A stretch of DNA of 64,000 nucleotides from Niabella aurantiaca DSM 17617. Lineage in GTDB: Bacteria; Bacteroidota; Bacteroidia; Chitinophagales; Chitinophagaceae. Position 1 is the first letter of the stretch. The number at the start of each line of letters is the position of its first letter. Position numbers and translations under genes: made by a program. The notes beneath the pieces were generated by a model. The model was not told the origin of the DNA and made no database searches. It was given only the letters and a program-made list of their open reading frames with translations. Below, piece by piece: positions 19,551 through 59,791 of the stretch. The stretch lies in the NCBI RefSeq assembly GCF_000374125.1, contig NZ_KB893637.1, positions 124,001-188,000 on the forward strand. Reading direction: 5' to 3'.

Positions 19551-19575
19551 TGCCGGTTAATTAAAAAAAACAAAA

Positions 19576-21253: not shown

Positions 21254-21287
21254 GTGTGATGCCTGCGGCAAATGCAGGACCCATGCT

Positions 21288-35996: not shown

Positions 35997-36010
35997 TGAA
36001 TACGTATTCA
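35997..36010. promoter_or_regulatory. LacI-type operator, copy 1 (upstream of lacI)
   Basis: TGAATACGTATTCA, a perfect 14-bp palindrome centred on CG, 20 bp before the regulator's start codon. Identical to the copy at 37070-37083; both are preceded by TTT and followed by TT. Confidence 0.85.
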
Positions 36011-36030: not shown

Positions 36031-37053
36031 TTGGTAACTAAGGCAAATCGGGGAAATCGGAATGCAACATCGGAAGATGTAGCACAGCTGGCAGGCGTTT
36101 CGCAGGCCACGGTATCCCGGGTTTTTGCCGGAGGGGCCAATGTATCTGAAAAGAAACGTAAAAAGATCCTGGATGCAGCAGCGGCGCTTGAATACAAGCC
36201 CAATGCGCAGGCCAGGAGCCTTATCACCCGTAAGACGATGATGGTGGGCATTATTATGCGCAATATACGGGACCCATTTTACTCGGCGGTACTGGAAATT
36301 TTTCATACCCGTTTATCACCCCTGGGTTATCAGCTGATCTTTAACAATTCCGAAAATGAGATCATCGAGGAATGGGAGATCGCCAAACTGCTTGAATACA
36401 ATGTGGAGGGTATTATTGTAACGGATGCCCTGCTTTCTGAGGGCGCAACCCGTAAACTGAAACGCAGCGGCATTGTTTCCATATTGTTTAACCGCTATGC
36501 TGAGGGACTGAATTGCAGCGCGGTATACTGTGATAACTATCTTGCGGCCCAGCAGATCGCGACCTACCTGGTGGAGATGGGGCACCGGACGTTTGCCTTT
36601 ATATCCGGTCCCCGGAATACATCCACTACGGTCGACCGTCTGAAAGGCTTCCGGGAAGTATTGTTGGAGCGGAAGATAAAAGATCTTACGATCATTCCCG
36701 GGACCTATACCTATGAAAGCGGGTTTCAAGCTGCCCAGGAGCTGTTAACACGCAACAAGAAGATCGATTGCATCTTTTGTGGCAGTGATATCATCGCGCT
36801 GGGGGTTATGGATGCTGCGCGCCTGGTGGGGTTCCGCATCCCGGAGGACCTGTCCGTAGTAGGGTTTGACAATATCCGGATGCTGGGGTGGACGCCTTAT
36901 CCGTTAACGACCTGGGAGCAGCCCCTGGAGGATATGGTAACCAGTACGGTGGATTTATTATTGAAAGAAATCAACGAAAAGAATGCGGTGCCCCGGATCA
37001 TTGCCATGAAGGGGCATCTTGTGATCCGCAATACAGTAAGGAAAAAGAAATAA
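36031..37053 (+). CDS. LacI-family regulator of the GH172 locus
   Basis: 340 residues. HTH SEDVAQLAGVSQATVSRVFA (about 14-33), hinge YKPNAQARSLITRKTMMVGI, then a sugar-binding-type domain with EGIIVTDAL, SILFNRYA, DNYLAAQQIATYL, FCGSDIIALGVMDAARLVGF and SVVGFDNIRM. The frame opens with TTG at 36031; no ATG lies upstream before the operator, and the next in-frame ATG is past the HTH, so TTG is the likely start. Identical palindromes lie 20 bp upstream and 17 bp downstream of the gene, in front of itself and susC. It is therefore the probable repressor of the locus. Confidence 0.88.
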   Translation: MVTKANRGNRNATSEDVAQLAGVSQATVSRVFAGGANVSEKKRKKILDAAAALEYKPNAQARSLITRKTMMVGIIMRNIRDPFYSAVLEIFHTRLSPLGYQLIFNNSENEIIEEWEIAKLLEYNVEGIIVTDALLSEGATRKLKRSGIVSILFNRYAEGLNCSAVYCDNYLAAQQIATYLVEMGHRTFAFISGPRNTSTTVDRLKGFREVLLERKIKDLTIIPGTYTYESGFQAAQELLTRNKKIDCIFCGSDIIALGVMDAARLVGFRIPEDLSVVGFDNIRMLGWTPYPLTTWEQPLEDMVTSTVDLLLKEINEKNAVPRIIAMKGHLVIRNTVRKKK

Positions 37054-37069
37054 TTTTTTTCTGATATTT

Positions 37070-37083
37070 TGAATACGTATTCA
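37070..37083. promoter_or_regulatory. LacI-type operator, copy 2 (upstream of susC)
   Basis: Second exact copy of TGAATACGTATTCA, 17 bp after the lacI stop and about 185 bp before the susC start. The two copies are 1,073 bp apart, so DNA looping across lacI is possible. Confidence 0.85.
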
Positions 37084-37267
37084 TTTTGTCGGAAGGCAGT
37101 CGTTGACCGGTTCGGGACGATGCAGGGCTTTTACTGCCCGGTAGGAGACGGCTGCTGAAACAACCATAAGAACAAAAATTGCCACAGATATGAAAAGAAT
37201 AACGATCGCACTATCGTGCTGCATCCCGGCCGCAAAAAAGATCCCGGCCACAGATGCGTTTTTACGG

Positions 37268-40200
37268 ATGATCTCAAAATACTGCTGGATCATCTTTTTG
37301 CTGGGCCTTATGCTCAACAACAACCAGGCTGCTGCCCGCCATTCGCCGGTGAAGGGATTATGGCCCTCCGCTGCCGTTCAGGACACCCTTCCATATGTGC
37401 TCAACGGCCTGGTACAGGATGAAAACAAAAATCCGCTGCCCAATGCCTCCGTACAGATCAGGGGCACGGTAAGAACAGCGCAGACAAACCTGGATGGTAA
37501 GTTTATTATTGAAGCGCGGAGCGGCGATTCACTGGTGGTTTCTTCCGTGGGCTACCTCCGGCAAATATTGGTGCTGCAGGGAACCCCAACATTGGTGGTC
37601 CAGCTGCTGCCCGATCTTGAAGGACAAAAACTGAACGAAGTACAGGTGGTCGGCTATGGATCGCAGAAGAAGACAACGATGGTCGGCGCTGTTTCAACGG
37701 TCAGTGTAGCAGAGCTGCAAAAATATTCTACTCCCCAGCTTACCAATGCCATTGGCGGAAAGCTGGCAGGCGTACTCACCCGGCAAACCTCGGGTGAGCC
37801 GGGTTACGACGCTGCCAAGATCTATATACGCGGACTGGTTTCTCAAAACGGGGTAAACAAGCCACTGATCATTGTGGACGGCGTAGAGCGGGAACTGAAT
37901 GATTACTGGACGAACATGAACATCCAGGATATCGAGAGCTTTTCAGTACTGAAGGATGCATCTGCAACGGCCGTGTACGGGAACAGGGGCGCCAATGGTG
38001 TGATCCTGATCGTAACAAAAAAAGGGGTTGTTGGTAAAACGCGGGTGATCTTCCGGACAGAAACAGCGATAGCAACTCCACAACGGATCGAAGACAATAT
38101 CAATGCCTATGAATATGCATCACTGGTAAATGAGTCCCGGCGCAACATCGGGGAGGCTCCGAAATATTCGGATACCGAGCTGCAGAAGTTTAAAGACCAT
38201 TCTGATCCGTACCTCTATCCGGATGTGGACTGGTACCGTACCATTTTCCGGAAAAATACCATGCAGACGATCAATAACCTGGGCATTACCGGGGGCACGG
38301 AGGTCGCGCGTTATTATGTGAACCTGGGCTATACCCTGCAGCAGGGGATGTATGTAGAAGATCCTAAAATGGAATATAAGACCAATGCCATGCTACACCA
38401 GTATAATTTCCGTTCCCGGGTGGATGTGAAGCTCAACAAACGGCTGAATATAGACCTGGGGCTGGCCGGTATCTCAAAGGCCGCTAACTTCCCCGGCAGG
38501 GCGCGGTCTACCATTTTTGATGTACTCAAACTTACGAACCCGCTGATGTATCCGGTGAAAAACCCGGATGGATCCAATCCCGGCGCCAGCGGCGACTCCA
38601 GGATTAATCCCTACACCCTGGTTACACAAACCGGTTATACCAAACAGTTTTATACCACTATTACCAGCAACCTCAATGTGCGTTGGGATATGGGCGGCGT
38701 GGTACCCGGGTTGTCATTAAACGGGCTGGCCGCTTTTGATGTGGTAGACATTACACAGAACGTGCGTACAAAAGACCCGGCTACTTTTTATTACAAGAAG
38801 GATCCGGGCACCGGTGCGGAAACGTATACTCCCATTGTTACGGAGACCGCACTGGGCCTGTATAACCTCAATGAAAACTACCGTACCGTGTACCAGGAGC
38901 TGCGGCTGGATTATGTACGCAGTTTTGGTAAACATAACATAACCGCATTGCTTGCTGCAAACAGAAGACAGTATAACAACGTAAATGCGGGCAATTCGAT
39001 TGACAATATCGCGGAAAGAAGACAGGGGCTGATCGGAAGGATCACGTATAACTATGATACCCGTTACCTGCTGGAAGTGAATGCCGGTTATACCGGGTCG
39101 GAACAATTTCCAAAGGGCGAGCGTTATGGCCTCTTTCCCTCCATCGGTCCGGGCTGGGTGGTATCGAACGAGCCGTTCTGGAACTCCGGGTTGATCAGCC
39201 TCTTAAAATTCAGAGGGTCCTATGGGCTGGTCGGTAATGACCGTATTGGTGGCGAACGTTTTTTGTTCCAGACCCGCTTCGACAAAAATGCGCCCGGTTA
39301 TGTTTTCGGACAGGATCAGAACATCAATCCCGGCGGTAAACGGGAGAACTTTATCGGGAATCCCGATGTGACCTGGGAGCATGCCTATAAATCAAACGTG
39401 GGGTTGGATCTTGAAATGCTTGAGCATATGTTCACGCTCACCGTAGACCTGTTTCATGAGCGGCGCGAAGACCAGCTGCTGAGAAGGCGGATCATTCCGA
39501 TATATGCCGGGTACCCCGATTTTATTATCCCTTATGGAAATGTAGGCATCGTAGAAAATAGAGGGGTCGACGGTAGTTTTCAGTTCCGTAATACTACAAA
39601 AGGCGGCCTGTACTACTCCGTTAATGGTAACCTCACGTTTGCAAAGAACAAGATTATCGAGAATGATTATCCCAAGCCGCAGTACCCCTGGCAGGACCTG
39701 CGCGGCTACCCGATCGGGGCCAACCTGGGTTATATCGCCGAAGGTTTTTTTAAGGATGAAACCGAGATCGCCAACAGCCCGGACCAGACCTATTTTCAGT
39801 CCGTCATCCGGCCCGGTGATGTAAAATATAAAGACATTAACGGGGATAACAAGATCACCAATGCCGATCAGACCGTGATCGGGAAATACGGATCGGAACC
39901 GCAGATGATGTATGGCCTGGGGATCGTGCTTTCCTATAAGGGATTTGATGCTTCCGTTTTCTTTACCGGGGTAGCCCATCGCGATTTCTTCTTTACGCAG
40001 CAATGGACCGCGATGCCCTTTGCCTCCGGTGAAAGCATGTACAATGTTATGCAGATGGTATATGACCAGCGCTGGATACCGGGTGCCGATAACAGCAATG
40101 CAAAATTCCCCGCTGTAAGATCGCTGAGTAAAAACAATAATGCAGGCTCTACCATATACCTGCGCAGCGGCGATTACTTAAGGATCAAGAATGCAGAGAT

Positions 40201-40384
40201 CGGATACAACCTTCCCGATGCCATGATGAAGCGGTGGCGGTTGAATGGCGCGCGGATCTTTGTACAGGGTACCAACCTGGCAACCTGGGATCATATAAAG
40301 GCCATTGATCCGGAATCCGACTTTGGCACCGGCAGTTATCCCATCAGCCGCAATTTCAATTTTGGCCTGGAAGTTAGATTTTAA
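37268..40384 (+). CDS. susC: SusC-like TonB-dependent outer membrane transporter
   Basis: About 1038 residues. Signal peptide (MISKYCWIIFLLGLMLNNNQ), a CarboxypepD_reg-like domain (NGLVQDENKNPLPNASVQIR), a TonB-box-like segment before the plug (LNEVQVVGYGSQKKTTMVGA), the plug (LIIVDGVERELNDYWTNMNI, then SFSVLKDASATAVYGNRGAN), and a beta-barrel ending FNFGLEVRF with a terminal Phe. It imports oligosaccharides together with the SusD-like protein that follows after 17 bp. An ATG at 37190 would add 26 residues before the signal peptide. First gene of the catabolic operon; preceded by a LacI-type operator. Confidence 0.95.
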   Translation: MISKYCWIIFLLGLMLNNNQAAARHSPVKGLWPSAAVQDTLPYVLNGLVQDENKNPLPNASVQIRGTVRTAQTNLDGKFIIEARSGDSLVVSSVGYLRQILVLQGTPTLVVQLLPDLEGQKLNEVQVVGYGSQKKTTMVGAVSTVSVAELQKYSTPQLTNAIGGKLAGVLTRQTSGEPGYDAAKIYIRGLVSQNGVNKPLIIVDGVERELNDYWTNMNIQDIESFSVLKDASATAVYGNRGANGVILIVTKKGVVGKTRVIFRTETAIATPQRIEDNINAYEYASLVNESRRNIGEAPKYSDTELQKFKDHSDPYLYPDVDWYRTIFRKNTMQTINNLGITGGTEVARYYVNLGYTLQQGMYVEDPKMEYKTNAMLHQYNFRSRVDVKLNKRLNIDLGLAGISKAANFPGRARSTIFDVLKLTNPLMYPVKNPDGSNPGASGDSRINPYTLVTQTGYTKQFYTTITSNLNVRWDMGGVVPGLSLNGLAAFDVVDITQNVRTKDPATFYYKKDPGTGAETYTPIVTETALGLYNLNENYRTVYQELRLDYVRSFGKHNITALLAANRRQYNNVNAGNSIDNIAERRQGLIGRITYNYDTRYLLEVNAGYTGSEQFPKGERYGLFPSIGPGWVVSNEPFWNSGLISLLKFRGSYGLVGNDRIGGERFLFQTRFDKNAPGYVFGQDQNINPGGKRENFIGNPDVTWEHAYKSNVGLDLEMLEHMFTLTVDLFHERREDQLLRRRIIPIYAGYPDFIIPYGNVGIVENRGVDGSFQFRNTTKGGLYYSVNGNLTFAKNKIIENDYPKPQYPWQDLRGYPIGANLGYIAEGFFKDETEIANSPDQTYFQSVIRPGDVKYKDINGDNKITNADQTVIGKYGSEPQMMYGLGIVLSYKGFDASVFFTGVAHRDFFFTQQWTAMPFASGESMYNVMQMVYDQRWIPGADNSNAKFPAVRSLSKNNNAGSTIYLRSGDYLRIKNAEIGYNLPDAMMKRWRLNGARIFVQGTNLATWDHIKAIDPESDFGTGSYPISRNFNFGLEVRF

Positions 40385-40401
40385 CTCAAAAAAAAATGAT
40401 C

Positions 40402-42270
40402 ATGAAAAAGTTGATACAAATTACCGTAGTGGTAGTCACGTTTATACTCATATCCGGCTGTAAGAAAGGGTTCCTGGATAAAACACCGGATGGCGACCTG
40501 ACGCTGGAGCAGATCTTTACCAACTCAGGATTTACCGAGCAATTCCTGACGAATATTTATTCGCAGTTGCCACAGGAACTCCGTATGGTGGACAACCCGG
40601 GGTCCGGTTTGCCCAATAACCCGTTTAACGGAGCTTCCGATGATATGGAAATGAGCTACTCCGGCAATTTTGCCACTGAAATGAACCTGGGAAACTGGAA
40701 TCCCGTAACGTATACACTGGATTTTTGGTCCAACAGTTACTACGCTATCCGGAAAGCCAACCTGTTCCTGGAGAATATAGATAAGCTGGTGCCCAGCGAT
40801 CTGGCCCCGGTATCAAAGATCAACCGGTGGAAAGGAGAAGCGATCTTTTTGAGGGCCTTTTATCACTTTCTGCTTATAAGGGTTTATGGGCCCGTACCCA
40901 TTATTGACCGGACCTATAACCTGAATGAAGATTTTTCAAAGGTGCCGAGACAGCCCATAGACCAGTGCGTAAATTTTATTGTGGCCGAATGTGATAAAGC
41001 GGCGGCCCTGCTGGAGCCCAAAGTAAGTTCGCCCAGCGATTACGGCCGTCCTTCCAAAGCAGCGGCATTAGCATTAAAAGCCCGTACGCTGCTGTACATG
41101 GCCAGTCCGCTGTGGAACGGAAACCCTGATTATGCCGGTTTCAGAGACAATGCGGGTATCAGGCTGTTCCCTGATTTTGATGGCGGGCGCTGGCAGGCAG
41201 CTGCAGATGCGGCAAAAAATTGTATTGATGAAGCTGCGGCAGCGGGCTATACCCTGTACCGCTCCGGCAATAACAATCCTGTAAAAAATTACCAGGAGCT
41301 TTTTTATACCAATTTCAATAGCGAAGTGTTTTTTACCGGGAATGATCCGGACTACCAGAACATTGATGCCTACAGTGAGCCGAGGGGGATGACCGGGGCA
41401 AACTGGCCATTGCAATCGCCTACGCAGGACCTGGTTGATGACTATGAAATGGCCAACGGAACCCGGCCCATCACCGGCTACAATGCGGATATGACGCCTA
41501 TCATCAATCCCTTGTCCGGTTACACCGAAAACGGCCAGGCCAACACGGAAACGGATTATTATTATGCCGGTACGCGTACCATGTATGTGAACCGTGAGCC
41601 GCGCTTTTATGCTACCATCAATTTTACAGGTGCCAAATATAAGACGGGGAGTCCCCAGAACCGTAAAACGCCCCTGCAGTTCTGGAAGCTGGGGCTGGAT
41701 GGCCGCACAAACGTAAGTACCGATTTTTACAGTAAAACAGGATATCTGCTCAAAAAACTAACACACCCGGCCTTTGTAATGTCGCCAAAGTCGGACCCCA
41801 AGCGTACCTGGATCTTTTTCCGGTTGGGTGAGCAATACCTGAACTACGCGGAAGCATTAAATGAGGCACAGGGACCGCTTGCCGATGTATACAAATATGT
41901 GAACCTGATCCGCGACCGTTCGGGATTGCCGGGCCTTGCAGCCGGTCTTTCAAAAGATGCGATGCGGGAAGCCATCCGCCATGAACGGCGTATAGAACTG
42001 GCGTTTGAGACCCACCGTTACTTTGATTGTCATCGCTGGAAGATCGCAGAGGTTACGGATAACAAGAATATTTACGGGCTTGATGTGAACGGGGTTATTA
42101 AAGAAGCTACGGCAAACGATCCTGCCATACCGTATACGATCACCAGCGATGCATTTTATAAGCGTACGCTTATCGAAAAAAGGATCTTTGATAAGAAGCA
42201 TTATCTCTGGCCGATACAGCAACGCGATATCGATAAGAATCCCAACCTGGTACAGAACCCTTTTTGGTAA
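40402..42270 (+). CDS. susD: SusD-like outer membrane glycan-binding lipoprotein
   Basis: 622 residues. SPII signal with the lipobox LISGC (Cys near residue 16), then the SusD/RagB fold: TPR-like helices (RWKGEAIFLRAFYHFLLIRV with the typical RAFYH), and the C-terminal RYFDCHRWKIAE and QQRDIDKNPNLVQNPFW. The pattern HERRIELAFETHRYFDCHRW is characteristic. It caps the SusC barrel and captures the substrate at the cell surface. The start at 40402 is preferred to an ATG at 40396. Confidence 0.95.
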   Translation: MKKLIQITVVVVTFILISGCKKGFLDKTPDGDLTLEQIFTNSGFTEQFLTNIYSQLPQELRMVDNPGSGLPNNPFNGASDDMEMSYSGNFATEMNLGNWNPVTYTLDFWSNSYYAIRKANLFLENIDKLVPSDLAPVSKINRWKGEAIFLRAFYHFLLIRVYGPVPIIDRTYNLNEDFSKVPRQPIDQCVNFIVAECDKAAALLEPKVSSPSDYGRPSKAAALALKARTLLYMASPLWNGNPDYAGFRDNAGIRLFPDFDGGRWQAAADAAKNCIDEAAAAGYTLYRSGNNNPVKNYQELFYTNFNSEVFFTGNDPDYQNIDAYSEPRGMTGANWPLQSPTQDLVDDYEMANGTRPITGYNADMTPIINPLSGYTENGQANTETDYYYAGTRTMYVNREPRFYATINFTGAKYKTGSPQNRKTPLQFWKLGLDGRTNVSTDFYSKTGYLLKKLTHPAFVMSPKSDPKRTWIFFRLGEQYLNYAEALNEAQGPLADVYKYVNLIRDRSGLPGLAAGLSKDAMREAIRHERRIELAFETHRYFDCHRWKIAEVTDNKNIYGLDVNGVIKEATANDPAIPYTITSDAFYKRTLIEKRIFDKKHYLWPIQQRDIDKNPNLVQNPFW

Positions 42271-42286
42271 TCAATATACATATTTT

Positions 42287-43522
42287 ATGGGCAGGCATTA
42301 TGAAGATTTTGGAACGATCGGGAAGGTATTGTTTACGGCCGTTTTGTTATGGCTGTTATGCGGCAGCGGGCCGGTCCGTGCGCAACCATTATATGAGTTG
42401 CCGGCGGCCGGCACCGAAACCCGCTGGATCAGTTTTGAGAACATTCGTGGCGAAAAAGGTGCTGCTGCAAAAGAGAACAAAGGTGCAAAGGGACATTCTT
42501 CCGAATGGATCCGTGCGGGTGAGCGCAAGCTGCTGATGGATTATTCCGGTGCCGGTGTCATCCACCGCATCTGGATGACCGTGATCGACAGAAGCCCGGC
42601 AGCGCTTCGTTCCATACGCATAGAAATGTATTGGGATCATGCTGCAAAACCAGCGGTGTCGGCACCGCTGGGAGATTTCTTTGGGATAAGCCTTGGCCTG
42701 AGAACGGCTTTTCAGAGCGCCGCTTTTGCCGATCCGGAGGGACGTTCTTTTAATTGTTATATCCCGATGCCGTTTAAAAAGCATGCGAAAATTGTTTTTA
42801 TTAATGAATCAAAAAGCGACCAACTGCTTTTTTATGATATCAATTTCTCCGTGCTGAAGCGACCCCCGCAGCAAGCCGGTTATTTTCATGCCTACTGGAG
42901 TACGAATAAAGTTTCCGCGCTGGGAACGGACTTCGCCATACTCCCGGAGATAAAAGGAAAGGGGCGTTTTCTGGGTACCAATATCGGCATTGTGACCGAC
43001 AAAGTATATAGAAGTACCTGGTTTGGAGAAGGTGAAGTGAAAATATACCTGGATGGAGATCAGCAGTATCCCACCCTGGCAGGAACGGGTACGGAAGATT
43101 ATATTGGCTCCGCATGGAACCTGGGACCCTTCTCCAATTTATATCAGGGCGCGCCGATAGTGGATAAGGCAAAGGGGCGTTTCTCTTTCTATCGCTATCA
43201 CATCCCTGATCCGGTTTTCTTCAGTACGAGCTGTAAGGTCACCATCCAGCAGATGGGCGGTGGGGGAAGGGATTCCATACGGGCTATTATCAAAGCGGGC
43301 GGGCAGGCCCGGCCGGTCTCGGTAATGACACAGCAGGGGTTGATCCCGTTATTAGACAGTACCGGATATCCCGATCTGTTTGATGACCGGTTCTCCAAAG
43401 ACGAATGGGTGAATTTTTATCGTGTAGATAATTATTCTGCCACGGCGTATTTCTACCTGGACCGGCCCGGAAATGATTTGCCCCCTATAGCTGGGCTGGA
43501 TGAGCGTTTGAAAGGATTGTAA
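42287..43522 (+). CDS. GH172 (DUF2961) glycosidase, first of four
   Basis: 411 residues with a signal peptide ending near PVRAQ. DUF2961 is now CAZy family GH172, whose characterised members act on alpha-D-fructofuranosides or alpha-D-arabinofuranosides. Both conserved glutamates are present: E248 in WFGEGE and E270 in GTGTEDYIG, corresponding in motif and near-equal spacing (22 residues; 21 in the others here) to the catalytic pair reported for the Bifidobacterium enzyme. Other blocks: GAGVIHRIWMTV, FFGISLGLR, YRYHIPDPVFF. ATG at 42287 gives a proper signal peptide; the frame extends upstream inside susD. It is the most divergent of the short paralogues. Confidence 0.88.
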   Translation: MGRHYEDFGTIGKVLFTAVLLWLLCGSGPVRAQPLYELPAAGTETRWISFENIRGEKGAAAKENKGAKGHSSEWIRAGERKLLMDYSGAGVIHRIWMTVIDRSPAALRSIRIEMYWDHAAKPAVSAPLGDFFGISLGLRTAFQSAAFADPEGRSFNCYIPMPFKKHAKIVFINESKSDQLLFYDINFSVLKRPPQQAGYFHAYWSTNKVSALGTDFAILPEIKGKGRFLGTNIGIVTDKVYRSTWFGEGEVKIYLDGDQQYPTLAGTGTEDYIGSAWNLGPFSNLYQGAPIVDKAKGRFSFYRYHIPDPVFFSTSCKVTIQQMGGGGRDSIRAIIKAGGQARPVSVMTQQGLIPLLDSTGYPDLFDDRFSKDEWVNFYRVDNYSATAYFYLDRPGNDLPPIAGLDERLKGL

Positions 43523-43564
43523 CGTAACTTGACTGATCATTATTAAAAACAGCGATTTGTTATT

Positions 43565-45421: not shown

Positions 45422-45447
45422 ATTTATAAAACACATATACAAAAGTT

Positions 45448-47492: not shown

Positions 47493-47495
47493 AAT

Positions 47496-49646: not shown

Positions 49647-49648
49647 CA

Positions 49649-50833: not shown

Positions 50834-50878
50834 TAATCCGGTACTGAAGCAAATAACGCATAGATCGTAAAAAAAACA

Positions 50879-52051
50879 ATGACATCCATAAAAGCAAAAT
50901 TAATGCTGGTGATATTCCTCACAGGTGCGCTGCAAGTGACGGCTCAGGACCTGATGGCACTTACCGGCATAAAGCAGGGCGTAAAATCGAAACGGATCAG
51001 CAGTTACGACCGGTCAGGGGATAACAACGATAACCTGCGGGATATAAAACCCGGGGAAAAACGCACGATCTTTAATGTGGAGGGTGCGGGGATCATCGAT
51101 CATATCTGGATGACGCTTTCTCCCGAACCCAATGTGCTGAGCCGGAATGATGTGATCCTCCGGATGTACTGGGATGGGAATACGTATCCGTCCGTTGAGT
51201 CGCCTATTGGCCCTTTCTTCGGACAGGGATGGAATGATGCTTATCTGTTTACATCAGCGGCGCTGGCGGCAACGCCAACAAACGGGAACGGACTGGTCAG
51301 TTATTTTGCTATGCCCTTTGCAAAAGGCGCCCGCATTGAGATTGAGAACCAGACGGACAGGAATATTAACGCCCTGTATTTCTACATCGACTACCAGGAA
51401 ATGAAAACGCTGCCGGCGAACACGGGACGGTTTCATGCCTGGTATAATAAACAACTGACAATACCTGCCGATCGTATAGAGAACGAGCACTGGATGTTTG
51501 GAGGCAACCCACCCAATAAAGACGGTAAGTCGAATTATGTCATTGCGGATATAAAAGGGAAGGGGCATTTCGTAGGCGTGAATTATTATGTACATGCTCC
51601 TACACCCTACTGGTATGGCGAGGGGGATGATATGTTTTTTATCGATGGTGATACGCTGCCCACAATGAACGGCACCGGTACGGAAGATTATTTCAATACG
51701 TCCTGGGGCGCGCCAAAACAATCTTATGCATCTCCTTATTTTGGTTATGCCAAAGTGAACGGGGATATCGGATTCCTGGGTCGTACGCATATTTACCGCT
51801 TCCATATTGCAGATCCGGTTTATTTCGACCGGTCGTTGCGCTTTACCATCGAACATGGAAGCAATAACGTGTTAACGCTGGATCTTGCCAGCGTGGCGTA
51901 TTGGTACCAGGACAAGGCAGATCGTATACCTCCGATACCGGGTGCCGCTGCGCGCAAGCCCATGCCATTGATCGGGCCCACGGACATCCATCGCTGGCGG
52001 AATGAGTGGCGGAAAAGCAAAGGAAATGACACCCGTCTCTGGGGCAAATAA
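50879..52051 (+). CDS. GH172 (DUF2961) glycosidase, third of four
   Basis: 390 residues, signal peptide (LMLVIFLTGALQVTAQ). A close paralogue of the preceding gene: FNVEGAGIIDHIWMTLSPEP, SPIGPFFGQGWNDAYLF, FAMPFAKGARIEIENQ, E248 in WYGEGDD and E269 in GTGTEDYFN, and an almost identical C-terminus ending DIHRWRNEWRKSK. The retained catalytic residues argue that both copies are active. The pair may differ in the linkage or anomer cut, or assemble as a hetero-oligomer, since family members form trimers or hexamers. Separated by 45 bp from GH172b. Confidence 0.9.
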   Translation: MTSIKAKLMLVIFLTGALQVTAQDLMALTGIKQGVKSKRISSYDRSGDNNDNLRDIKPGEKRTIFNVEGAGIIDHIWMTLSPEPNVLSRNDVILRMYWDGNTYPSVESPIGPFFGQGWNDAYLFTSAALAATPTNGNGLVSYFAMPFAKGARIEIENQTDRNINALYFYIDYQEMKTLPANTGRFHAWYNKQLTIPADRIENEHWMFGGNPPNKDGKSNYVIADIKGKGHFVGVNYYVHAPTPYWYGEGDDMFFIDGDTLPTMNGTGTEDYFNTSWGAPKQSYASPYFGYAKVNGDIGFLGRTHIYRFHIADPVYFDRSLRFTIEHGSNNVLTLDLASVAYWYQDKADRIPPIPGAAARKPMPLIGPTDIHRWRNEWRKSKGNDTRLWGK

Positions 52052-52096
52052 GTGATGATTGATCAATAAAAAGGCATTCGAAAAAAGAAAATAACT

Positions 52097-53377
52097 ATGG
52101 CGCGGTTTATTAAAAGAGGAAAAGCAGTAATAGAAGTGCAACAGGAGCATTCAAAAGTAAAACAGGTTGTGGAAGCGATGATCCGGAATATTGAATCCGG
52201 CGGTGACGAAGCAGTGCGCGCTTATGCGGAACGGCTTGATCAATGGACACCGGGATCCTTCCGGCTGTCGGACGAAGAGATACGGGCGATTATAGACCGC
52301 ACACCGCAACCGATAAAAGAGGATATCCTTTTTGCACAACAGCAGATCCGTTCCTTTGCAGAACAACAACGGAAGACCTTGCAGGACCTGGAAGTGGAGA
52401 CCCTGCCGGGCGTATTCCTCGGGCATAAGAATATTCCGGTGAGCAGCGTAGGCTGTTATATACCCGGCGGTCGTTATCCGATGGTGGCCTCCGCACACAT
52501 GAGCGTGCTCACCGCCAAAGTAGCCGGCGTAAAAAGAGTGATCGCCTGCACACCGCCCATACAGGGAAAGATACCGGAGGCCACGGTCTGTGCCATGTAT
52601 TTTGCGGGTGCGGACGCCATCTATATCCTGGGCGGTGTACAGGCGCTTTGTGCGATGGCGATCGGTACGGAGTCCATTCCGGCTGTGGACATGATCGTAG
52701 GTCCGGGTAATGCGTACGTGGCGGAGGCAAAACGACAGCTTTTCGGAAGGGTAGGCATCGATCTGTTGGCGGGTCCTACCGAAGTACTGGTGATCGCGGA
52801 TGAAACGGCGGATGCAGAAATGGTAGCCTGCGACCTGCTGGGGCAGGCGGAGCATGGCCCCACATCGCCGGCGGCGCTGATCACTACCTCTGAAAGGCTG
52901 GCAGGGGAAACGTTGGCTGAGATTGAACGGCAGCTGGAAACCTTGCCGACGGCGGATCTTGCGGGAGCAGCCTGGCGGGACTATGGGTCGGTTATATTGG
53001 TGAAGGACATGACGGAAGCCGTGACCGAAGCTGATAAGCTGGCCTATGAGCATGTGGAAGTGCTGACTGCCGATCCCGCTTATTTTCTGGAAAACATGAC
53101 CAATTACGGCGCACTGTTCCTCGGGCCGGAAACGAATGTGGCCTACGGGGATAAGGTCATTGGTACCAATCATACACTGCCCACCATGAAAGCCGCGCGG
53201 TATACCGGTGGGTTGTGGGTAGGTAAATTTATAAAGACATGCACCTATCAGCGCTGTTCTCCGGAGGCCAGCGCACTGATCGGTGCTTATGCAGAACGGC
53301 TTTGTGCTGTTGAAGGATTTGCCGGGCATAGAAAGCAGGCGCTCATACGCGTTGCGCGTTATGCCTCAAAGAAATAG
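52097..53377 (+). CDS. Histidinol dehydrogenase-family alcohol dehydrogenase, catabolic type
   Basis: 426 residues, cytosolic, HisD superfamily. Conserved blocks: [70 protein letters not shown], the metal ligands in GQAEHGP, the catalytic pair in [16 protein letters not shown] and the final GFAGH. No other his genes are near, and the sequence resembles catabolic HisD paralogues (such as HpsN of sulfopropanediol degradation) more than HisD itself. It would oxidise a primary alcohol to a carboxylate with NAD in two steps; in this locus the substrate is probably a released sugar alcohol or similar compound (inference). An authentic HisD moved into the locus is less likely. Confidence 0.85.
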
Positions 53378-53457
53378 GGAAATTGATCATTTTTTTACAA
53401 TTTTGGCATAGCTTAAACGATAAAACCCCTTTTTAACCGCATTAAAACAGCATCATC

Positions 53458-55155
53458 ATGAAAAAATACGCCCAAGGATTGCTGATCCTTTTCAGTGGAT
53501 GTTTTCTGGGAACGGCGCATGCAGGCAGCACCGGCGGACCCGATGCGCCGATGGCTGTATGGCTGCAAAGTTCGCTGCAACGGATATTTCCGCAATCACC
53601 GGCGCAAACGGCTGCTGCACTGGAACTGCAGGCGGCAAGGAACAGCCGGGTTTCATTCCAGGTAGCTTTCCGGAGCAATATGAAAGACCAGACCCATATA
53701 TCCTGCAGTACCGAAGGCGCGGAGACCCTGCACCCCCGGGTGCGTTATGTGGGTCTGGTGCCGATGCCGCATTTCAATACCGATGTAAGTCCGGAAGAAC
53801 TGGATGGTGTGGGCTACCTGCCCGGCTGGCTGCCGGATCCGCTGTATCCTGTAACAAAAACAGAAGCACATCCGTTTGAAAGCCGTTCGTTCTGGATCAC
53901 CCTGCAAATCCCGGCGTCATTGTCGCCCGGTATCCATGATTTTCATGTACGCATGCGCTGGCAGGAAGGCAAGGAGGAAAAAGACAAATTGCTACATGTA
54001 AAAGTAAAAGTGAGCGCATTGGTACTGCAACCAAGGAGCAATTTCCATGTTACGCATTGGTGGCGGGGTGAAGCTATTGCCTTACAGTATGAAACGAAAA
54101 TGTTTGATGAACAATGGTGGAAGCTGACGAGGGCCTGCATGAAAAATCTTATAGAACATGGGAATGATGTCGCTTTTATCCAGAATTTCTTCGAACTGCG
54201 GGCTGTATTTAAAGAACCCTGTCAGATGCTGATCGTAAGGGAACCGAGCCCCGGAAAATATGAGTTTGACTGGTCGCGGATCAAACGGTTTGTAGATATG
54301 TGCCGGGAACTGGGCTATAAAAAATTTGAATGGGCGCATCTCTGGCTTTATTGGGGCGTACAGGATGCCATGCATGTTTATAAGAAAGAAGGGAACGCCT
54401 ATAAACTGTTATGGGCGGAGAACCTCTCGGGTACTTCCGATACCTATATTCATTTTTTAAAACAATACCTGCCCCAGCTGCACCGGTTCCTGCTAAAGGA
54501 AAACCTGCTGAGCGATTCGTATTTTCATCTGTCGGACGAACCCTGGTCGGAGCATGTGGAAAATTATAAAAAAGCACGCAATATACTCCGGCAACTGGCG
54601 CCGTGGATGAAGGTAATGGATGCCTTAAGCGATGTGCGTTATGGACGCGAGCAACTGACCGATATTCCGATACCCATCATCAGCTCGGATGAGGCGTACC
54701 GGAAAGAACAGATTCCGCATTGGGTCTATTTCTGCACCGGTCCCCGCAATAAATGGCTCAACCGGTTGTACGATACACCACTGCCCAAATTGCGGATGAG
54801 CGGCTGGCTTTTTTACAAACTGAAAGCCCTTGGCTTTTTACATTGGGGCTATAATTTCTGGTATACACTGGATAAAGAGCAGCCGGGGGATCCCTTTACA
54901 GAAGGCGCCGCTTATGCCTATCCGGGTATTGCCTACGGTGATCCTTTTGTGGTATATCCCGGCCCGGATGGTCCGTATGATTCCATCCGCTGGGAGGTGT
55001 TTTCAGAATCGCTGCAGGATTATGCCATCCTGCAATCAGCAGGGATACAGCCTGAGGATCCCATGCTGGCAGCATTGCATACTTACGAAGATTTTCCCCG
55101 GAGCGAACAATGGATCAATGAAACGCTGAAAAAGATTTTGGAAAAAGCAAAATAA
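53458..55155 (+). CDS. DUF4091 protein, GH123-like glycosidase
   Basis: 565 residues with a signal peptide (MKKYAQGLLILFSGCFLGTA). Layout of DUF4091 proteins: an N-terminal beta-sandwich (about 30-190) and a TIM barrel (about 200-540) with a conserved Asp-Glu in YFHLSDEPWS (D360, E361), the pair used as catalytic residues in GH123 beta-N-acetylgalactosaminidases. The late motif SIRWEVFSESLQDYAILQ is also typical of DUF4091. Substrate is unproven; a retained DE pair supports hydrolysis of an N-acetylhexosamine or another sugar by substrate-assisted catalysis (inference). Follows the HisD-like gene after 80 bp. Confidence 0.83.
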   Translation: MKKYAQGLLILFSGCFLGTAHAGSTGGPDAPMAVWLQSSLQRIFPQSPAQTAAALELQAARNSRVSFQVAFRSNMKDQTHISCSTEGAETLHPRVRYVGLVPMPHFNTDVSPEELDGVGYLPGWLPDPLYPVTKTEAHPFESRSFWITLQIPASLSPGIHDFHVRMRWQEGKEEKDKLLHVKVKVSALVLQPRSNFHVTHWWRGEAIALQYETKMFDEQWWKLTRACMKNLIEHGNDVAFIQNFFELRAVFKEPCQMLIVREPSPGKYEFDWSRIKRFVDMCRELGYKKFEWAHLWLYWGVQDAMHVYKKEGNAYKLLWAENLSGTSDTYIHFLKQYLPQLHRFLLKENLLSDSYFHLSDEPWSEHVENYKKARNILRQLAPWMKVMDALSDVRYGREQLTDIPIPIISSDEAYRKEQIPHWVYFCTGPRNKWLNRLYDTPLPKLRMSGWLFYKLKALGFLHWGYNFWYTLDKEQPGDPFTEGAAYAYPGIAYGDPFVVYPGPDGPYDSIRWEVFSESLQDYAILQSAGIQPEDPMLAALHTYEDFPRSEQWINETLKKILEKAK

Positions 55156-55161
55156 TGCGGC

Positions 55162-56127
55162 ATGAATAAAACAGGAACTATCATTGGAATTGTATTGTTC
55201 GTTTTTCAGCTAACGGAAACGCGGGCACAGCATATAGAAGTGCCACAGATAGCGGGGGACTGGGTACATATTTTTGATCCGAATGAGACCCGCCGGCAGG
55301 GCGACAGTTCCTGGTACACCAATGACCATTGTTTTGTAAAAGCGGCAGACGGCTCCTGGCATGCCTTTGGCATCATTCATCATCTGCCGGTTGCTCCCTG
55401 GAAGGAAACCCGTTTATTCCATATTACAGCCCATACATTATCGCAGTCACACTGGGAAGATAAAGGATATGCCCTGTCGGCAGAGCCCGGTGTGGAACGG
55501 GTATTGTGGGCCCCGCATATTTTCAAAGAAAAGGGACGCTATCATATGTTTTACAATACTGGTAATATGCAGGAAAATGCACCCAACTATGCCTCATGGG
55601 GCCAGCTGCGCCTGGCTACCAGTATGGACCTGTATCAATGGCAGCGGCATGTGTTGAACCCGTTGTTCAGTGATGCCGGCCATGCACGGGACTCTTATAT
55701 TATGAAATATAAGGGGCGGTATTACTACTATTACACCCGCACGTTCAGCGAAACGGATCTGCGCTCCGTGGTAGCGGTACGCACGGGGCCGGACCTGTAT
55801 CACTGGAGTGGTCCCCGGATCGTGCATACGCAGCCCTTCCGGGTAGACTGGGGTGGCGATGCGGAAAGTCCCTTTGTGGTAAAAAAAGGGAAGATATTCT
55901 ATCTTTTTATTTGCCGGGCAATGACGGAGTATAACCGTACCGATGTGTACTGGTCAAAGGATCCGCTGCGTTTTCCAAATGAAAACCTTGTCTGCACCTT
56001 ACCGGTACATGCTGCGGAACTGATCTATGATAAGAAAGCAGGCTGGTTTATTTCCAATACCGGCTGGGATAAAAAAGGGCTTTACCTGGCCCCGTTGAAA
56101 TGGGTATTAAAAACCGGAATAAAATGA
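55162..56127 (+). CDS. Five-bladed beta-propeller glycosidase (GH43/GH32-like)
   Basis: 321 residues with signal peptide (VLFVFQLTETRAQ). Propeller-type motifs in order: WYTNDHCFVKAADGSWHAFG (first acid region), VLWAPHIFKEKGRYHMFYNT, GHARDSYIMKYKGRYYYYYT (second acid) and GGDAESPFVVKKGKIFYLFI (AESP, general-acid Glu). These fit the GH43/GH62/GH32/GH117 superfamily, but I cannot place the exact family. Family members include arabinofuranosidases, galactofuranosidases and fructosidases, all consistent with a furanose-rich substrate. Its stop overlaps the next start (ATGA). Confidence 0.8.
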   Translation: MNKTGTIIGIVLFVFQLTETRAQHIEVPQIAGDWVHIFDPNETRRQGDSSWYTNDHCFVKAADGSWHAFGIIHHLPVAPWKETRLFHITAHTLSQSHWEDKGYALSAEPGVERVLWAPHIFKEKGRYHMFYNTGNMQENAPNYASWGQLRLATSMDLYQWQRHVLNPLFSDAGHARDSYIMKYKGRYYYYYTRTFSETDLRSVVAVRTGPDLYHWSGPRIVHTQPFRVDWGGDAESPFVVKKGKIFYLFICRAMTEYNRTDVYWSKDPLRFPNENLVCTLPVHAAELIYDKKAGWFISNTGWDKKGLYLAPLKWVLKTGIK

Positions 56128-58391
56128 AGGATAAGATCTTAAAACAGGGAAGTTTTTTTTTGCTGTTGCTGCCTTTTTTTGCAATAGCGCAATCCCGCAA
56201 AAGCGTTGTATTGCCGCCCCAACCTTCGGGCTATGATGCCTACCGGATGTGGAGCAGTCTGCCGCAGCAGCGCATCGGCGTAAGGGCCTATATGCGCAGC
56301 ACCTATGACCGCGGCGGTGGCGGCTACGATGCTTCCAATTTTCTTTTTATGAAAAAAGAGGATGAGAATGTAACACTGGATGTAAAGGGTAATGGCACGC
56401 TCTGGTTCTTCAGAGCCAATCACTGGCATGGCAGCCCCTGGCATTTTGTTGTGGATGGGAAAGATAATATTGTAAGGGAAACAGCAACGGCCGATCCGGC
56501 AGATGCGGTTAAAAAATATAAAACGACTGCCTATATCCCCGCAAAGGCATTGCCGGAGCCCTTTGCATGGACCTGGGGAACCACTAAGGGCGCCAATCTT
56601 TCCTGGATCCCTATGCGGTTCAGCAATTCGTTGCAGATCGCTTATTCAAGAACTTTTTATGGTACGGGCTATTATATCTACCACCTGTATGCGGATACTG
56701 GATTACTGGCGAACCAGACCAGGCCCTGGAACCTGCAACAGGTGCCTCCGGCGGATGCCATGGCATTTGTGAACCGTGCGGGTACGGATATCGCTCCAAC
56801 GGATATTGAAAAGGTGCAGGGAACCGTGCAGCGCGATCGGGAGCACGTGGTGCTTGCTACACTGCGATCGGGACCTGCAACCCTTCGCGCGCTGAAGCTG
56901 ACCCTGCCCCTGGATGAGGCAGAGCAGCTCGAACGGGTACGGCTGAAAGCAACCTGGGACGGGGCAACAGAACCTTCCATCGATGCCCCGCTTTGCCTGT
57001 TCTTTGGAGCCGGTACCTTTTTTAACCGGGAGAAAAAGGAATACCTGGTAAAGGGATTGCCGATCAATATACGCTACAATTATGCAGAGGGAACGGTGGA
57101 GCTTGCCTGCTATTACCCCATGCCGTTTTTCAGCGCTGCAAAGATCGAACTGGCTGGTATCTCCTCCGGACAGGGAACGATCCGGTATGAGCTGCGTTAT
57201 GAAAAGCAGGCAAAGGCAACACCGGCGTTCAGCAGTTATTTTCATGCTACGTATCGCGATTTTCCGAAACCGGAACTCGGACGGGATATGGTCTGGCTGG
57301 ATACAAAGGGGCTGGAAGGGCAACAGGAGTGGTCGGGAAGCTTCCTTGGCAATTCATTTATTTTTTCGCATAACGCCAATCTGAATACACTGGAAGGCGA
57401 CCCCCGTTTCTTTTTTGATGACAGCCAGACGCCACAGGCCTATGGCACCGGAACAGAAGAATGGGCCGGAGGGGGTGATTACTGGGGTGGTGAGAACATG
57501 ACGCTGCCGCTGGCCGGACATCCCTGCGGTGCCATTGAAAAGAAAAAAGCAGTAAACGAAAAGGACCTGATCCAATCGGCATATCGTTTTTTGTGGGCCG
57601 ACCTGATGCCTTTTGGAAGGCGGGCCGTGATCCGGTTTGAGCACAATGAGAATGTTTCCCAGGAGCATTATGAATCGGTTTGCTACTGGTACGGGCTGCC
57701 GGCTGCTTCGCTGGTGGAAACGGATCGGCTGGATGTAGGCAATGAACAGGATGAGCGGTTGCATCGCTACAACTCGCCGCAGGGGTCAGCGGTCGATACC
57801 ATCGAATCGCGCTATGAATGGGGGCCGGATGCCTATCCCGCGCATGCCTGGGGCTATGACCTGCCCAACCGCCCGGGTTATAAAGAATATATGGGGAAAC
57901 AGATCTACCCGGCGCAAAAAGAAGATGGCCGCACTACAGCAGGCATTACGGAATTTAATATCCGCCTGAGAAAAGACAACCAGGGCGCATTGCTGCGACG
58001 TACACTGGATTACGGCTATCCCAATCAAACGGCTGAAGTATATATCGCTGTACCAACCGGTAAAAAGGCAATTGCTGAAACAGACTGGAAGAAGGCGGGT
58101 ACCTGGTATCTTGCCGGTTCCAATATCTGGATGACCTCCCGGCCAAAGGATGAACTGGGTAAGCGGGTATACCAGGTGCGTACCTCCAACCGGCGCCTGC
58201 GCGATGATGAGTTCCTGATCCCTGCAGTGCTGACAAAGAACCGTACAATGGTGCGGGTGCGGATCAAAAATATTCCCAACCGGCAGGGGCTTTACCCGGG
58301 GCACCCTTTTCCATTAGAAAATAAGTGGAGCGAACTGCGGTATCGCATTTTCAGTTATATCATTCCCTCATTCAACGTTCCCGGAAAATGA
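56124..58391 (+). CDS. Long GH172 (DUF2961) protein, fourth of four
   Basis: 755 residues with a signal peptide (FFLLLLPFFAIAQ). Roughly twice the length of the other three. The first half (about 20-380) contains GH172-like beta-jelly-roll blocks (YDAYRMWSSLPQQ, WFFRANHWHGSPW); the central region has both catalytic glutamates, E424 in LEGDPRFFFD and E445 in GTGTEEWAGGG, 21 residues apart; the C-terminal ~200 residues form an additional domain (EFNIRLRKDNQGALLRRTL, VYQVRTSNRRLRDDEFLIPA). The ATG at 56124 overlaps the previous stop as ATGA. Such long members are less studied and might be a different subgroup of the family. Confidence 0.85.
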   Translation: MKDKILKQGSFFLLLLPFFAIAQSRKSVVLPPQPSGYDAYRMWSSLPQQRIGVRAYMRSTYDRGGGGYDASNFLFMKKEDENVTLDVKGNGTLWFFRANHWHGSPWHFVVDGKDNIVRETATADPADAVKKYKTTAYIPAKALPEPFAWTWGTTKGANLSWIPMRFSNSLQIAYSRTFYGTGYYIYHLYADTGLLANQTRPWNLQQVPPADAMAFVNRAGTDIAPTDIEKVQGTVQRDREHVVLATLRSGPATLRALKLTLPLDEAEQLERVRLKATWDGATEPSIDAPLCLFFGAGTFFNREKKEYLVKGLPINIRYNYAEGTVELACYYPMPFFSAAKIELAGISSGQGTIRYELRYEKQAKATPAFSSYFHATYRDFPKPELGRDMVWLDTKGLEGQQEWSGSFLGNSFIFSHNANLNTLEGDPRFFFDDSQTPQAYGTGTEEWAGGGDYWGGENMTLPLAGHPCGAIEKKKAVNEKDLIQSAYRFLWADLMPFGRRAVIRFEHNENVSQEHYESVCYWYGLPAASLVETDRLDVGNEQDERLHRYNSPQGSAVDTIESRYEWGPDAYPAHAWGYDLPNRPGYKEYMGKQIYPAQKEDGRTTAGITEFNIRLRKDNQGALLRRTLDYGYPNQTAEVYIAVPTGKKAIAETDWKKAGTWYLAGSNIWMTSRPKDELGKRVYQVRTSNRRLRDDEFLIPAVLTKNRTMVRVRIKNIPNRQGLYPGHPFPLENKWSELRYRIFSYIIPSFNVPGK

Positions 58392-59791
58392 ATTTGAAAA
58401 AGTTATTCCTTATACTCCTGTTTGCAACGGCATCGATCCGGGCAAAGGCCAATATCCGCCTTCCGGATATCATTGGCAGTAATATGGTACTGCAACAAAA
58501 ACATAAAGTGAAACTGTGGGGCTGGGCCGATCCGTATGAAAAGATCACGATTAAAGGTTCCTGGAATAGGGAGGTGTATGAGGCTATGGGAACGCGCGAT
58601 GCCAAATGGGAGATCGAATTGCAAACGCCTGCCGCGGGCGGGCCTTATACCATTTCCTTGCAGGGAAAGAATTCATTGCTGCTGGAAAATGTATTGATCG
58701 GGGAGGTATGGCTTTGTGCCGGGCAGAGTAATATGGAAATGAGTGGTAACTGGGGATTGCCGGACATCCAGAACGAATTGCCGCAGGCCTATCAGCGGGA
58801 GCTGCGTTTTTTTCATATAGCCAAAACAACGGCGGCTTTTCCACAGGAACAGGTACAGGGACAGTGGGTGGTATGCGACAGTAATACGCTGAAGACCTTT
58901 AGTGCGGCAGCTTATTTTTTTGGAAAGAAGCTTCATCAGCAACTGGGCGCTCCTGTTGGACTTATCGAAGCAGCCTGGGGCGGCACGGCTGCGGAGGTAT
59001 GGACACCGGATAGCGTTGTGAACAACGATCCTGTTCTTAAAAAAGCTGCAACGCTGATACAGCCCAGTGGTATGTGCCCCTATATGCCCGGCAGCGCTTA
59101 CAATGGAATGATCGCGCCCATCACCTCTTATGCGATTGCAGGAGTGATCTGGTACCAGGGAGAGAACAATACCGATGCTGCCGTAACCTACCGTCCATTG
59201 TTTACCGCCCTCATCGGGGCCTGGCGCCGTGCCTGGGGGCAGCAGCTGCCCTTTTATTATGTACAGGTGGCGCCCTTCCGGTATAAGAAGATCAACGCGG
59301 GGGCATTGCTGCGGGAAGCACAGTGGCAATGCTCCTCGATTCCGCATACGGGCATGGTGGCCACTAACGATATTACCGGTAATGTAGATGACGTACACCC
59401 CCGGAATAAACACGATGTTGGGCTGCGATTGGCTAATTGGGCGCTGGCCGATCATTACGGCCAAGCCGGCATTGCGTATAAGAGCCCGGAATATAAAAGT
59501 ATGCAGGTAAAAGGAGCGAAGGCGGTTATTAAAATTTCCGGAGCAGAAGCGGGATTAATAATAAAGGGAGATAGCCTTGCGGAGATGCAGATCGCAGGGG
59601 CGGATAAGGTCTTTTATCCCGCGGAGGCCACCATACAGGGTGATAGGATCGTAGTTTGGAATACGGAGGTAAAAAAACCAATGGCCGTCCGGTATTGTTT
59701 TACCGATACGGCCATTGGTAATGTAAGCAACAGTGCAGGACTTCCGCTATTGCCCTTTCGCACCGATCGCTGGGCATTCCCGGGATTCTGA
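58388..59791 (+). CDS. Sialate O-acetylesterase-like SGNH esterase
   Basis: 467 residues, signal peptide (LKKLFLILLFATASIRAKAN). SASA family: IRLPDIIGSNMVLQQKHKV beta domain, nucleophile Ser in VWLCAGQSNMEMS, GLIEAAWGGTAAEVW, WYQGENNTD and catalytic DDVHPRNK (Asp/His). Removes O-acetyl groups from glycans in the periplasm. Last gene of the operon (ATGA overlap with GH172d); its presence implies that the natural substrate is acetylated. Confidence 0.9.
   Translation: MNLKKLFLILLFATASIRAKANIRLPDIIGSNMVLQQKHKVKLWGWADPYEKITIKGSWNREVYEAMGTRDAKWEIELQTPAAGGPYTISLQGKNSLLLENVLIGEVWLCAGQSNMEMSGNWGLPDIQNELPQAYQRELRFFHIAKTTAAFPQEQVQGQWVVCDSNTLKTFSAAAYFFGKKLHQQLGAPVGLIEAAWGGTAAEVWTPDSVVNNDPVLKKAATLIQPSGMCPYMPGSAYNGMIAPITSYAIAGVIWYQGENNTDAAVTYRPLFTALIGAWRRAWGQQLPFYYVQVAPFRYKKINAGALLREAQWQCSSIPHTGMVATNDITGNVDDVHPRNKHDVGLRLANWALADHYGQAGIAYKSPEYKSMQVKGAKAVIKISGAEAGLIIKGDSLAEMQIAGADKVFYPAEATIQGDRIVVWNTEVKKPMAVRYCFTDTAIGNVSNSAGLPLLPFRTDRWAFPGF

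Follow-up and report, generated by a model that had tools for sequence, protein, structure and literature searches.

We analyzed a 64,000-nucleotide stretch of the Niabella aurantiaca DSM 17617 genome (hereafter the window; G000:C13:124001-188000 of a 5.93-Mb genome, lineage Chitinophagaceae), focusing on a run of 15 genes at 36031-59791 that carries four genes of glycoside hydrolase family GH172 (DUF2961) and a dehydrogenase related to HpsN and histidinol dehydrogenase (HisD). We conclude with moderate confidence that this run is a LacI-controlled polysaccharide utilization locus (PUL) for a glycan other than mycobacterial D-arabinan. Seven of its genes form a core that is rare in Bacteroidota at large, and the palindrome that flanks its lacI gene also precedes the same dehydrogenase in other phyla. 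The PUL type and one gene, NaNga, are already known; what appears new is the uncommon core together with the likely cross-phylum switch.

All 15 genes lie on the + strand, with a largest gap of 136 bp and 4-bp overlaps at three junctions. This same-strand run bears out the single operon with SusCD, an SSS symporter, and a SASA esterase that an earlier, sequence-only reading of this DNA had claimed. The gene order is LacI (36031..37053), SusC (37190..40384), SusD (40396..42270), GH172a (42287..43522), SSS (43565..45421), GAT (45448..46260), Cer (46257..47492), U716 (47496..49646), GH172b (49649..50833), GH172c (50879..52051), HisD-type dehydrogenase (52097..53377), GH123 (53458..55155), GH43-like (55162..56127), GH172d (56124..58391), and SASA (58388..59791). 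The SusC-like TonB-dependent transporter (Pfam Plug and CarbopepD_reg_2) adjoins the SusD-like lipoprotein (Pfam SusD_RagB, 196.4 bits) in the company of glycosidases and a regulator, which is the makeup of a SusCD-type PUL. By hydropathy inspection only, the N-termini of GAT, Cer, and the dehydrogenase are not strongly hydrophobic and those of the glycosidases are hydrophobic; GAT and the dehydrogenase are probably cytosolic, and GH172a to GH172d, U716, and SASA are probably secreted.

We compared gene content across 15 loci: the window, the same-genus loci G760, G716, G739, and G658, and ten records (L068, L069, L070, L071, L072, L077, L081, L085, L091, and L110) of Niabella pedocola, Pedobacter, Chitinophaga, and Mucilaginibacter. 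SSS, GAT, Cer, U716, the HisD-type dehydrogenase, GH172d, and SASA are present in 15 of 15 loci, counting L077, in which the contig end truncates SSS and Cer falls into two reading frames; L085 and L091 were read only downstream from SSS. The variable genes are GH172a, GH172b, GH172c, GH43, and GH123. All four GH172 genes occur in nine loci (the window, G760, G716, G739, G658, L068, L070, L081, and L110) and GH123 in five, and in L069, read from upstream of susC past lacI, GH172d is the sole GH172. The Pedobacter ginsengisoli locus carries GH172d only and is the simplest. A second SusCD pair, 24 to 30% identical to the first, lies between GH172a and SSS in G760 (L052-L053), G716 (L054), G658 (L058-L059), and N. 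pedocola (L068, L196). We excluded G433/L096, a 6.5-kb contig with SSS, Cer, and an identical dehydrogenase, and G417, which has no dehydrogenase match.

The module formed by the seven constant genes is rare in Bacteroidota at large. Among 395 Bacteroidota genomes, U716 has a match over most of its length in four and a short-stretch match in a fifth, and the dehydrogenase has a match at E<=1e-100 in six (own genome included in the four and the six). Matches to Cer occur in 71 of 394 family genomes, only seven of which, own included, reach at least 48% identity; a close Cer is present in 5 of the 10 same-genus genomes shown, own included. Beyond the 15 loci, U716, SSS, GAT, and Cer lie beside GH20 and a SIS-domain gene in G417, with no dehydrogenase match in the stretch read. 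In G300, U716 lies beside a GlcNAc-2-epimerase-type gene, with glucosamine-6-phosphate-isomerase-type and amidohydrolase genes a few kilobases upstream. These neighbors hint at amino sugars.

The dehydrogenase (Pfam, 464.2 bits) passes the NCBIfam hisD domain cut-off, and its class is therefore likely annotated as histidinol dehydrogenase. In a sequence comparison with the PDB it scored 392 bits against sulfopropanediol 3-dehydrogenase and 274 bits against the best histidinol dehydrogenase; the source of PDB entry 4g07 is presumably B. suis. Elsewhere in the genome, at C3:30678-31889, is a second, separate HisD copy that shares 34% identity with the enzyme in the run. HpsN, an (R)-sulfopropanediol 3-dehydrogenase, is reported to have the motif GRY[A/S]H, the terminal His126 of which binds zinc or sulfonate, and histidinol dehydrogenases to have GSAPL (PMC11382572). 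The window enzyme instead has GRYPM and stands in a glycan operon, not in a histidine biosynthesis context, and no sulfonate pathway match lies beside it. Judged by this motif, it is neither HisD nor a sulfopropanediol dehydrogenase. At the last motif position, a 92-row alignment has Met in 85 rows, His in 2 (both HpsN), and another residue or a gap in 5. The window enzyme shares with HpsN the residues to which zinc-binding and catalytic roles are ascribed (PMC11382572): Q250, H253, E318, H319, and D352, kept in 92 of 92 rows, and H411, kept in 90 with gaps in the other 2. Lys353, described in the same paper as contacting the sulfonate, is common to both enzymes and is kept in 90 rows. Because the tested zinc and catalytic residues are kept, the chemistry is likely kept as well, namely oxidation to an acid of a primary alcohol beside a hydroxyl- or amino-bearing carbon; alcohol-to-acid chemistry is likewise what the homology to histidinol dehydrogenase would predict. 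Because Met replaces His126, the third substituent of the substrate probably differs from that of the HpsN substrate.

In the HisD tree, a 15-row clade (98/91) holds only Cer-linked dehydrogenases among those included; its rows represent 13 loci of the set, all but G716 and G739, which the tree did not include, and the same Segetibacter sequence twice. The nearest relatives outside this clade are those of L082, L084, and Bacillota. In L084 (Mucilaginibacter terrigena, 10001-21277), the dehydrogenase and a GntP-type permease adjoin SusCD, a BT_3987-like gene, and an alpha-N-acetylglucosaminidase gene (NAGLU). GRYPM dehydrogenases of other Bacteroidota also occur, near position 10001 of L104, L106, L114, L116, L118, L122, L130, and L146, in clusters with an extradiol dioxygenase and an FrsA-like hydrolase, several of which also contain flavin (FAD) monooxygenase, FAH-type, SDR, and cyclase genes.

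Two exact copies of the palindrome TGAATACGTATTCA flank the regulator gene, whose product has Pfam LacI and Peripla_BP_3 matches: one upstream of lacI (35997..36010) and one between lacI and susC (37070..37083). Both are likely LacI operators. When the lacI-susC gaps of five Niabella loci are aligned, the second copy is conserved, with the palindrome reading TTTGAATACGTATTCAAA in four and TTTGAATACGTATTCATT in the window. The 14-mer has just these two exact copies in the 5.93-Mb genome and one more place at one mismatch. Elsewhere in the window, a two-mismatch copy of the 16-mer palindrome lies at 16151-16166, given a chance expectation of 0.30 matches at three or fewer mismatches. Sites are present at 13 of the 15 PULs, beside lacI or before susC, with one mismatch in some (L069, L070, L071, and L110). 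When they flank lacI in Bacteroidota PULs, they are approximately 1.06 to 1.08 kb apart. G716 and G760 each showed a single site, at the margin of the sequence read; in the genome of L077 (G779), lacI-susC with two sites is on another contig and presumably belongs to the locus. An extra pair of one-mismatch sites lies between GH172a and the SSS gene in L081.

The same palindrome recurs with the dehydrogenase well beyond these PULs. Among the loci of the best 80 of 152 dehydrogenase relatives, 19 of the 21 with a LacI neighbor at 40% identity or more have a site at no more than one mismatch, as do 4 of the other 59. The two LacI loci without a site are L069, where sites lie just outside the fetched stretch, and L147; the four others with one are L081, a PUL of the window kind, and L094, L100, and L102, with LacIs at 29 to 33% identity. 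In total there are 39 sites in 1.46 Mb, whereas 100 shuffled palindromes gave 0.37 on average and 4 at most; the loci include close relatives and are not independent. LacIs that neighbor the same dehydrogenase in Bacillota and Chloroflexota share 41 to 53% identity with the window LacI. In six Bacillota loci (L075, L086, L094, L102, L113, and L129) the sites are 19 to 77 bp before the predicted dehydrogenase start; in other Bacillota loci they are further up or ahead of the first gene of the cluster.

The gene set is much smaller in Bacillota, in which Alkalicoccobacillus porphyridii is one of the carriers. In L086, L088, L090, and L092 (L088 and L090 are one named species), it consists of LacI, the dehydrogenase, and a GntP/CitMHS-type permease, with the next downstream gene on the opposite strand and, in L086, a 128-aa frame just upstream of the group. 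L108, on a 3.8-kb contig, and L113, which continues on the same strand, have the same trio, which in other Bacillota loci is accompanied by SDR, 3HCDH, and additional genes. The permease family was assigned by clustering, with Pfam matches for the L073 and L113 members. An intermediate of the pathway is the usual signal for LacI-family proteins. Given that LacI and the palindrome adjoin the same enzyme in Bacillota, Chloroflexota, and Bacteroidota, the effector is likely the substrate or product of the dehydrogenase, and probably a small unit that is freed from the glycan and bears an alcohol or amino alcohol. Because Bacillota would need little beyond the dehydrogenase, one oxidation may directly give a central metabolite. 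As a candidate we tentatively propose the C4 carboxylate 3,4-dihydroxybutanoate, which would be held as an N-acyl group, removed by Cer, and oxidized to malate (or its amino form to aspartate); this reaction would be the carboxylate analogue of the conversion of sulfopropanediol to sulfolactate. The dihydroxybutyrate catabolism literature, as far as searched, contains nothing on a natural pathway of this kind. We tentatively raise the possibility, with the odds against it, that LacI, TGAATACGTATTCA, and the GRYPM dehydrogenase make up a regulon, not described before, that spans phyla and serves a single small molecule, which would be taken up free by the GntP/CitMHS-type permease in Bacillota and cut from a glycan by GH172d, U716, and SASA in Bacteroidota.

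The four GH172 genes themselves are as first claimed: starts at 42287, 49649, 50879, and 56124 are in frame, and all four proteins exceed the Pfam PF11175 cut-off of 27 bits (GH172a, 231.5; GH172b, 266.5; GH172c, 282.7; GH172d, 133.6 bits). A profile search found eight DUF2961 genes in the whole genome, four in the run and four others; among 294 family genomes, 104 contain DUF2961 at E<=1e-10, most of them (86 of the 104) with just one or two matches. The catalytic pair, reported as E233/E254 in DgGH172c (PMC10115798) and E270/E291 in alphaFFase1 (PMC8605356), is kept in all four window proteins and in all 27 orthologue rows listed. Its spacing agrees with the 21 to 22 residues noted before (22 in the gene at 42287 and 21 in the other three), and is 20 in the GH172c-type rows of L085 and L091.

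Activity on arabinofuranosides (Araf) or fructofuranosides (Fruf) is not supported for all four. GH172d is a divergent protein that is 24 to 26% identical to all four solved GH172 members and forms its own clade (11 rows, 100/100) in a 39-row tree that carries a long-branch warning. In the same tree, the GH172a clade (5 rows, 100/99) is on the ExoMA1 side, the GH172c clade (9 rows) has support of 90/77, and GH172b (6 rows, 52/68) is poorly resolved. GH172a is 40% identical to ExoMA1; GH172b and GH172c are 61 to 62% and 60 to 62% identical, respectively, to BACUNI_00161 and DgGH172c. One position is reported to be Asn253 in the Araf-only ExoMA1 and Gly299 in the Fruf-allowing alphaFFase1 (PMC10509167). 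There, Asn is found in 5 of 5 GH172a rows, Cys in 6 of 6 GH172b rows, as in DgGH172c, and Gly in 9 of 9 GH172c rows, as in alphaFFase1, and in 11 of 11 GH172d rows; the Cys was taken from the ungapped sequence, as the alignment has a gap in the GH172b rows. These residues suggest that GH172a to GH172d differ in specificity. The position follows a conserved Trp, and its residue would predict Araf-only action for GH172a and tolerance of Fruf for GH172c. Two more GH172 genes lie at C13:255000-291000 (L165, L166), one of which (49% identical to GH172a) is beside GH127, PhyH, GFO/IDH/MocA, MR_MLE, and 2-hydroxyacid dehydrogenase genes.

A second locus in the same genome favors a target other than mycobacterial D-arabinan for the run. 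At C1:478-506 kb (within C1:470000-508000; L163, L164) are two GH172 genes (C1:477960 and C1:480828), a fucose-isomerase-type gene (C1:484440), three DUF4185/GH183 genes over cut-off (C1:495269, 496431, and 505091), SusCD, and DUF6786. A fourth GH183 match, at C1:371971, is below cut-off, and C1:630192 and C3:183570 hold additional isomerase-type matches. Because this locus carries a gene set of the kind reported for D-arabinan loci, the window operon is a second, distinct system, and because the genome holds this separate locus, the run likely has another target, as the sequence-only reading had considered plausible. Its observation that GH183 is absent also stands. In Pfam searches, none of the 15 proteins of the run matches GH183, a D-arabinose/fucose isomerase, or a kinase; the genome's GH183 matches are all on C1 and its isomerase matches are confined to C1 and C3. 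We therefore rejected a plain D-arabinan locus for the run. The D-arabinan loci of Dysgonomonas gadei (PUL42) and Microbacterium arabinogalactanolyticum are described as sugar-utilization loci with three and one GH172 genes, respectively (PMC10115798; PMC10509167), and DgGH172c of PUL42 is close to GH172b and GH172c. Like these loci, the window has GH172 in a sugar-utilization locus; unlike them, it has no GH183 or isomerase and instead has the HpsN/HisD-like enzyme, Cer, GAT, and U716. DUF6786 is found both in the D-arabinan-type locus (L163:11743-13005) and in Segetibacter (L060:5382-6545), beside an SSS-Cer-dehydrogenase module.

The remaining proteins of the run range from well matched to lacking any family. 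SSS is a sodium:solute symporter (Pfam SSF, 102.9 bits), and GAT is a GATase1-like protein (PF07090, 190.6 bits). Cer matches the N-terminal ceramidase-type domain only (PF04734, 32.3 bits, cut-off 32.1), over model positions 4-156 of 509. Its AlphaFold model (predicted TM-score 0.81, mean predicted local distance difference test [pLDDT] 70.8) resembles neutral ceramidase 2zws in a Foldseek search (E 5.2e-19). Compared to neutral ceramidase, a full-length, two-domain, secreted ceramide amidase, Cer has 411 aa and no signal peptide that we could see. Because Cer is single-domain and lacks a visible secretion signal, the case for classical ceramide hydrolysis is weak. U716 (716 aa) has zero matches in Pfam, NCBIfam, or PDB searches; its AlphaFold model is poor (mean pLDDT 51), with weak likeness to alpha/alpha-barrel folds (best Foldseek E 4.5e-3). 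The DUF4091 protein and the propeller glycosidase of the sequence-only reading fared differently. The former, a GH123-type beta-N-acetylgalactosaminidase, matches PDB 8p4l over 544 residues (1301.8 bits) and 8q8h, the beta-D-GalNAcase of Niabella aurantiaca DSM 17617 (1281.8 bits); by sequence, the gene is NaNga or a near-identical copy and, of eight run genes compared with the PDB, the sole one with a near-identical solved structure. The latter is a propeller glycosidase with only a weak GH43 match (PF04616, 40.5 bits, cut-off 32.2) and has no PDB sequence match at E<=0.001. SASA is a carbohydrate esterase (PF03629, 81.8 bits).

In the model that we favor, with its operator function, reaction, effector, and substrates all inferred, SusCD would bind and import fragments of a glycan dismantled by secreted GH172a to GH172d, U716, GH43, SASA, and the beta-GalNAcase. 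The SSS symporter would import a small unit, which cytosolic Cer, as a ceramidase-type hydrolase, and GAT would process, and the HpsN/HisD-like enzyme would oxidize a primary alcohol beside a hydroxyl- or amino-bearing carbon to an acid with two NAD+. The LacI repressor would be released from the two palindromes flanking lacI by the small unit or its product.

One alternative is a second D-arabinofuranan or D-fructofuranan PUL, in which GH172a to GH172c would take alpha-D-Araf or alpha-D-Fruf off bacterial glycans such as O-antigens or pilin glycans, the isomerase would come from the other locus, and the cytosolic enzymes would have side functions. We consider this possible, if doubtful. It draws on the 60 to 62% identity of GH172b and GH172c to DgGH172c, which is reported to be active on alpha-D-Araf (PMC10115798), the Asn and ExoMA1-branch placement of GH172a, the presence of all four GH172 genes in 9 of 15 loci, and the identity of the window SusC and SusD to those of the genome's own D-arabinan-type locus (44% and 47%). 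However, GH172a to GH172c are not constant, as L069 has only GH172d, the member farthest from the solved enzymes, and the run has no Pfam match to an isomerase, kinase, or GH183. The "furanose-rich, acetylated" glycan of the sequence-only reading was derived from family names only. As a whole, that reading is partly supported: GH172 identity and GH183 absence were upheld, a target other than mycobacterial D-arabinan is favored, and Araf/Fruf activity is not supported for all four enzymes.

An arabinogalactan-type plant or microbial exopolysaccharide with beta-GalNAc would account for NaNga and the weak GH43 match, since GH43 can include L-arabinan and galactan enzymes. For NaNga, arabinogalactan is reported to have been suggested as the substrate, with the natural substrate not identified (PMC11087588). 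We regard such a target as unlikely: 10 of 15 loci yielded no GH123, which argues against N-acetylgalactosamine (GalNAc) as the defining unit and left that candidate weak, and apart from GH43 the run has zero Pfam matches toward beta-galactan or L-arabinan. It is very unlikely that the dehydrogenase acts on a sulfonate (sulfopropanediol) freed from a sulfonated glycan or lipid. Its best solved relatives are sulfopropanediol 3-dehydrogenases and it keeps Lys353, but the sulfonate-binding His126 is Met in the window and His in just the two HpsN rows of 92, and none of the 15 proteins matches a sulfolactate lyase in Pfam. We rejected the sulfonate on the replacement of His126.

Several observations weigh against a LacI-controlled PUL whose cytosolic enzymes serve one released molecule. 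L147 has a LacI neighbor (41% identity) and no site was found there, and 2 of the 15 loci, L085 and L091, have no site at one mismatch or less near the locus. In L084 and L082 the dehydrogenase is present, but the sequence read contains no Cer, GAT, or U716 and no site lies near; G417 has U716, SSS, GAT, and Cer with no dehydrogenase match in the part read. Because these loci separate them, the cytosolic enzymes do not necessarily belong to a single pathway. The presence of the GRYPM class in extradiol dioxygenase, FAD monooxygenase, and SDR clusters does not fit one obvious substrate, and the enzymes of the window give no direct sign of the released monomer.

In the literature searched, we found no description of the gene set or the regulon. 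The main text of Ravcheev et al. on LacI regulons (PMC4052901; supplements outside the search) does not contain histidinol, hisD, GntP, or TGAATA, and the terms LacI family, histidinol dehydrogenase, regulon, Bacillus, and operator never occurred together in one paper of those searched. The HpsN/HisD-like dehydrogenase, the ceramidase-like protein, the palindrome, and the constancy of GH172d, rather than GH172a to GH172c, across loci all go beyond that reading. The GH172 family was created recently, and within it GH172d represents a divergent lineage with the catalytic pair retained. The likely switch and the dehydrogenase, shared by unrelated bacteria, suggest that the polymer carries a special small molecule. 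Because the likely switch and the dehydrogenase sit in a much smaller gene set in Bacillota, the inducing molecule can be sought there; naming it would name a defining part of the glycan and give a function to the dehydrogenase class. Outside the 15-gene run, an alpha-L-fucosidase-type gene at 59817-61166 of the window is convergent with the operon.

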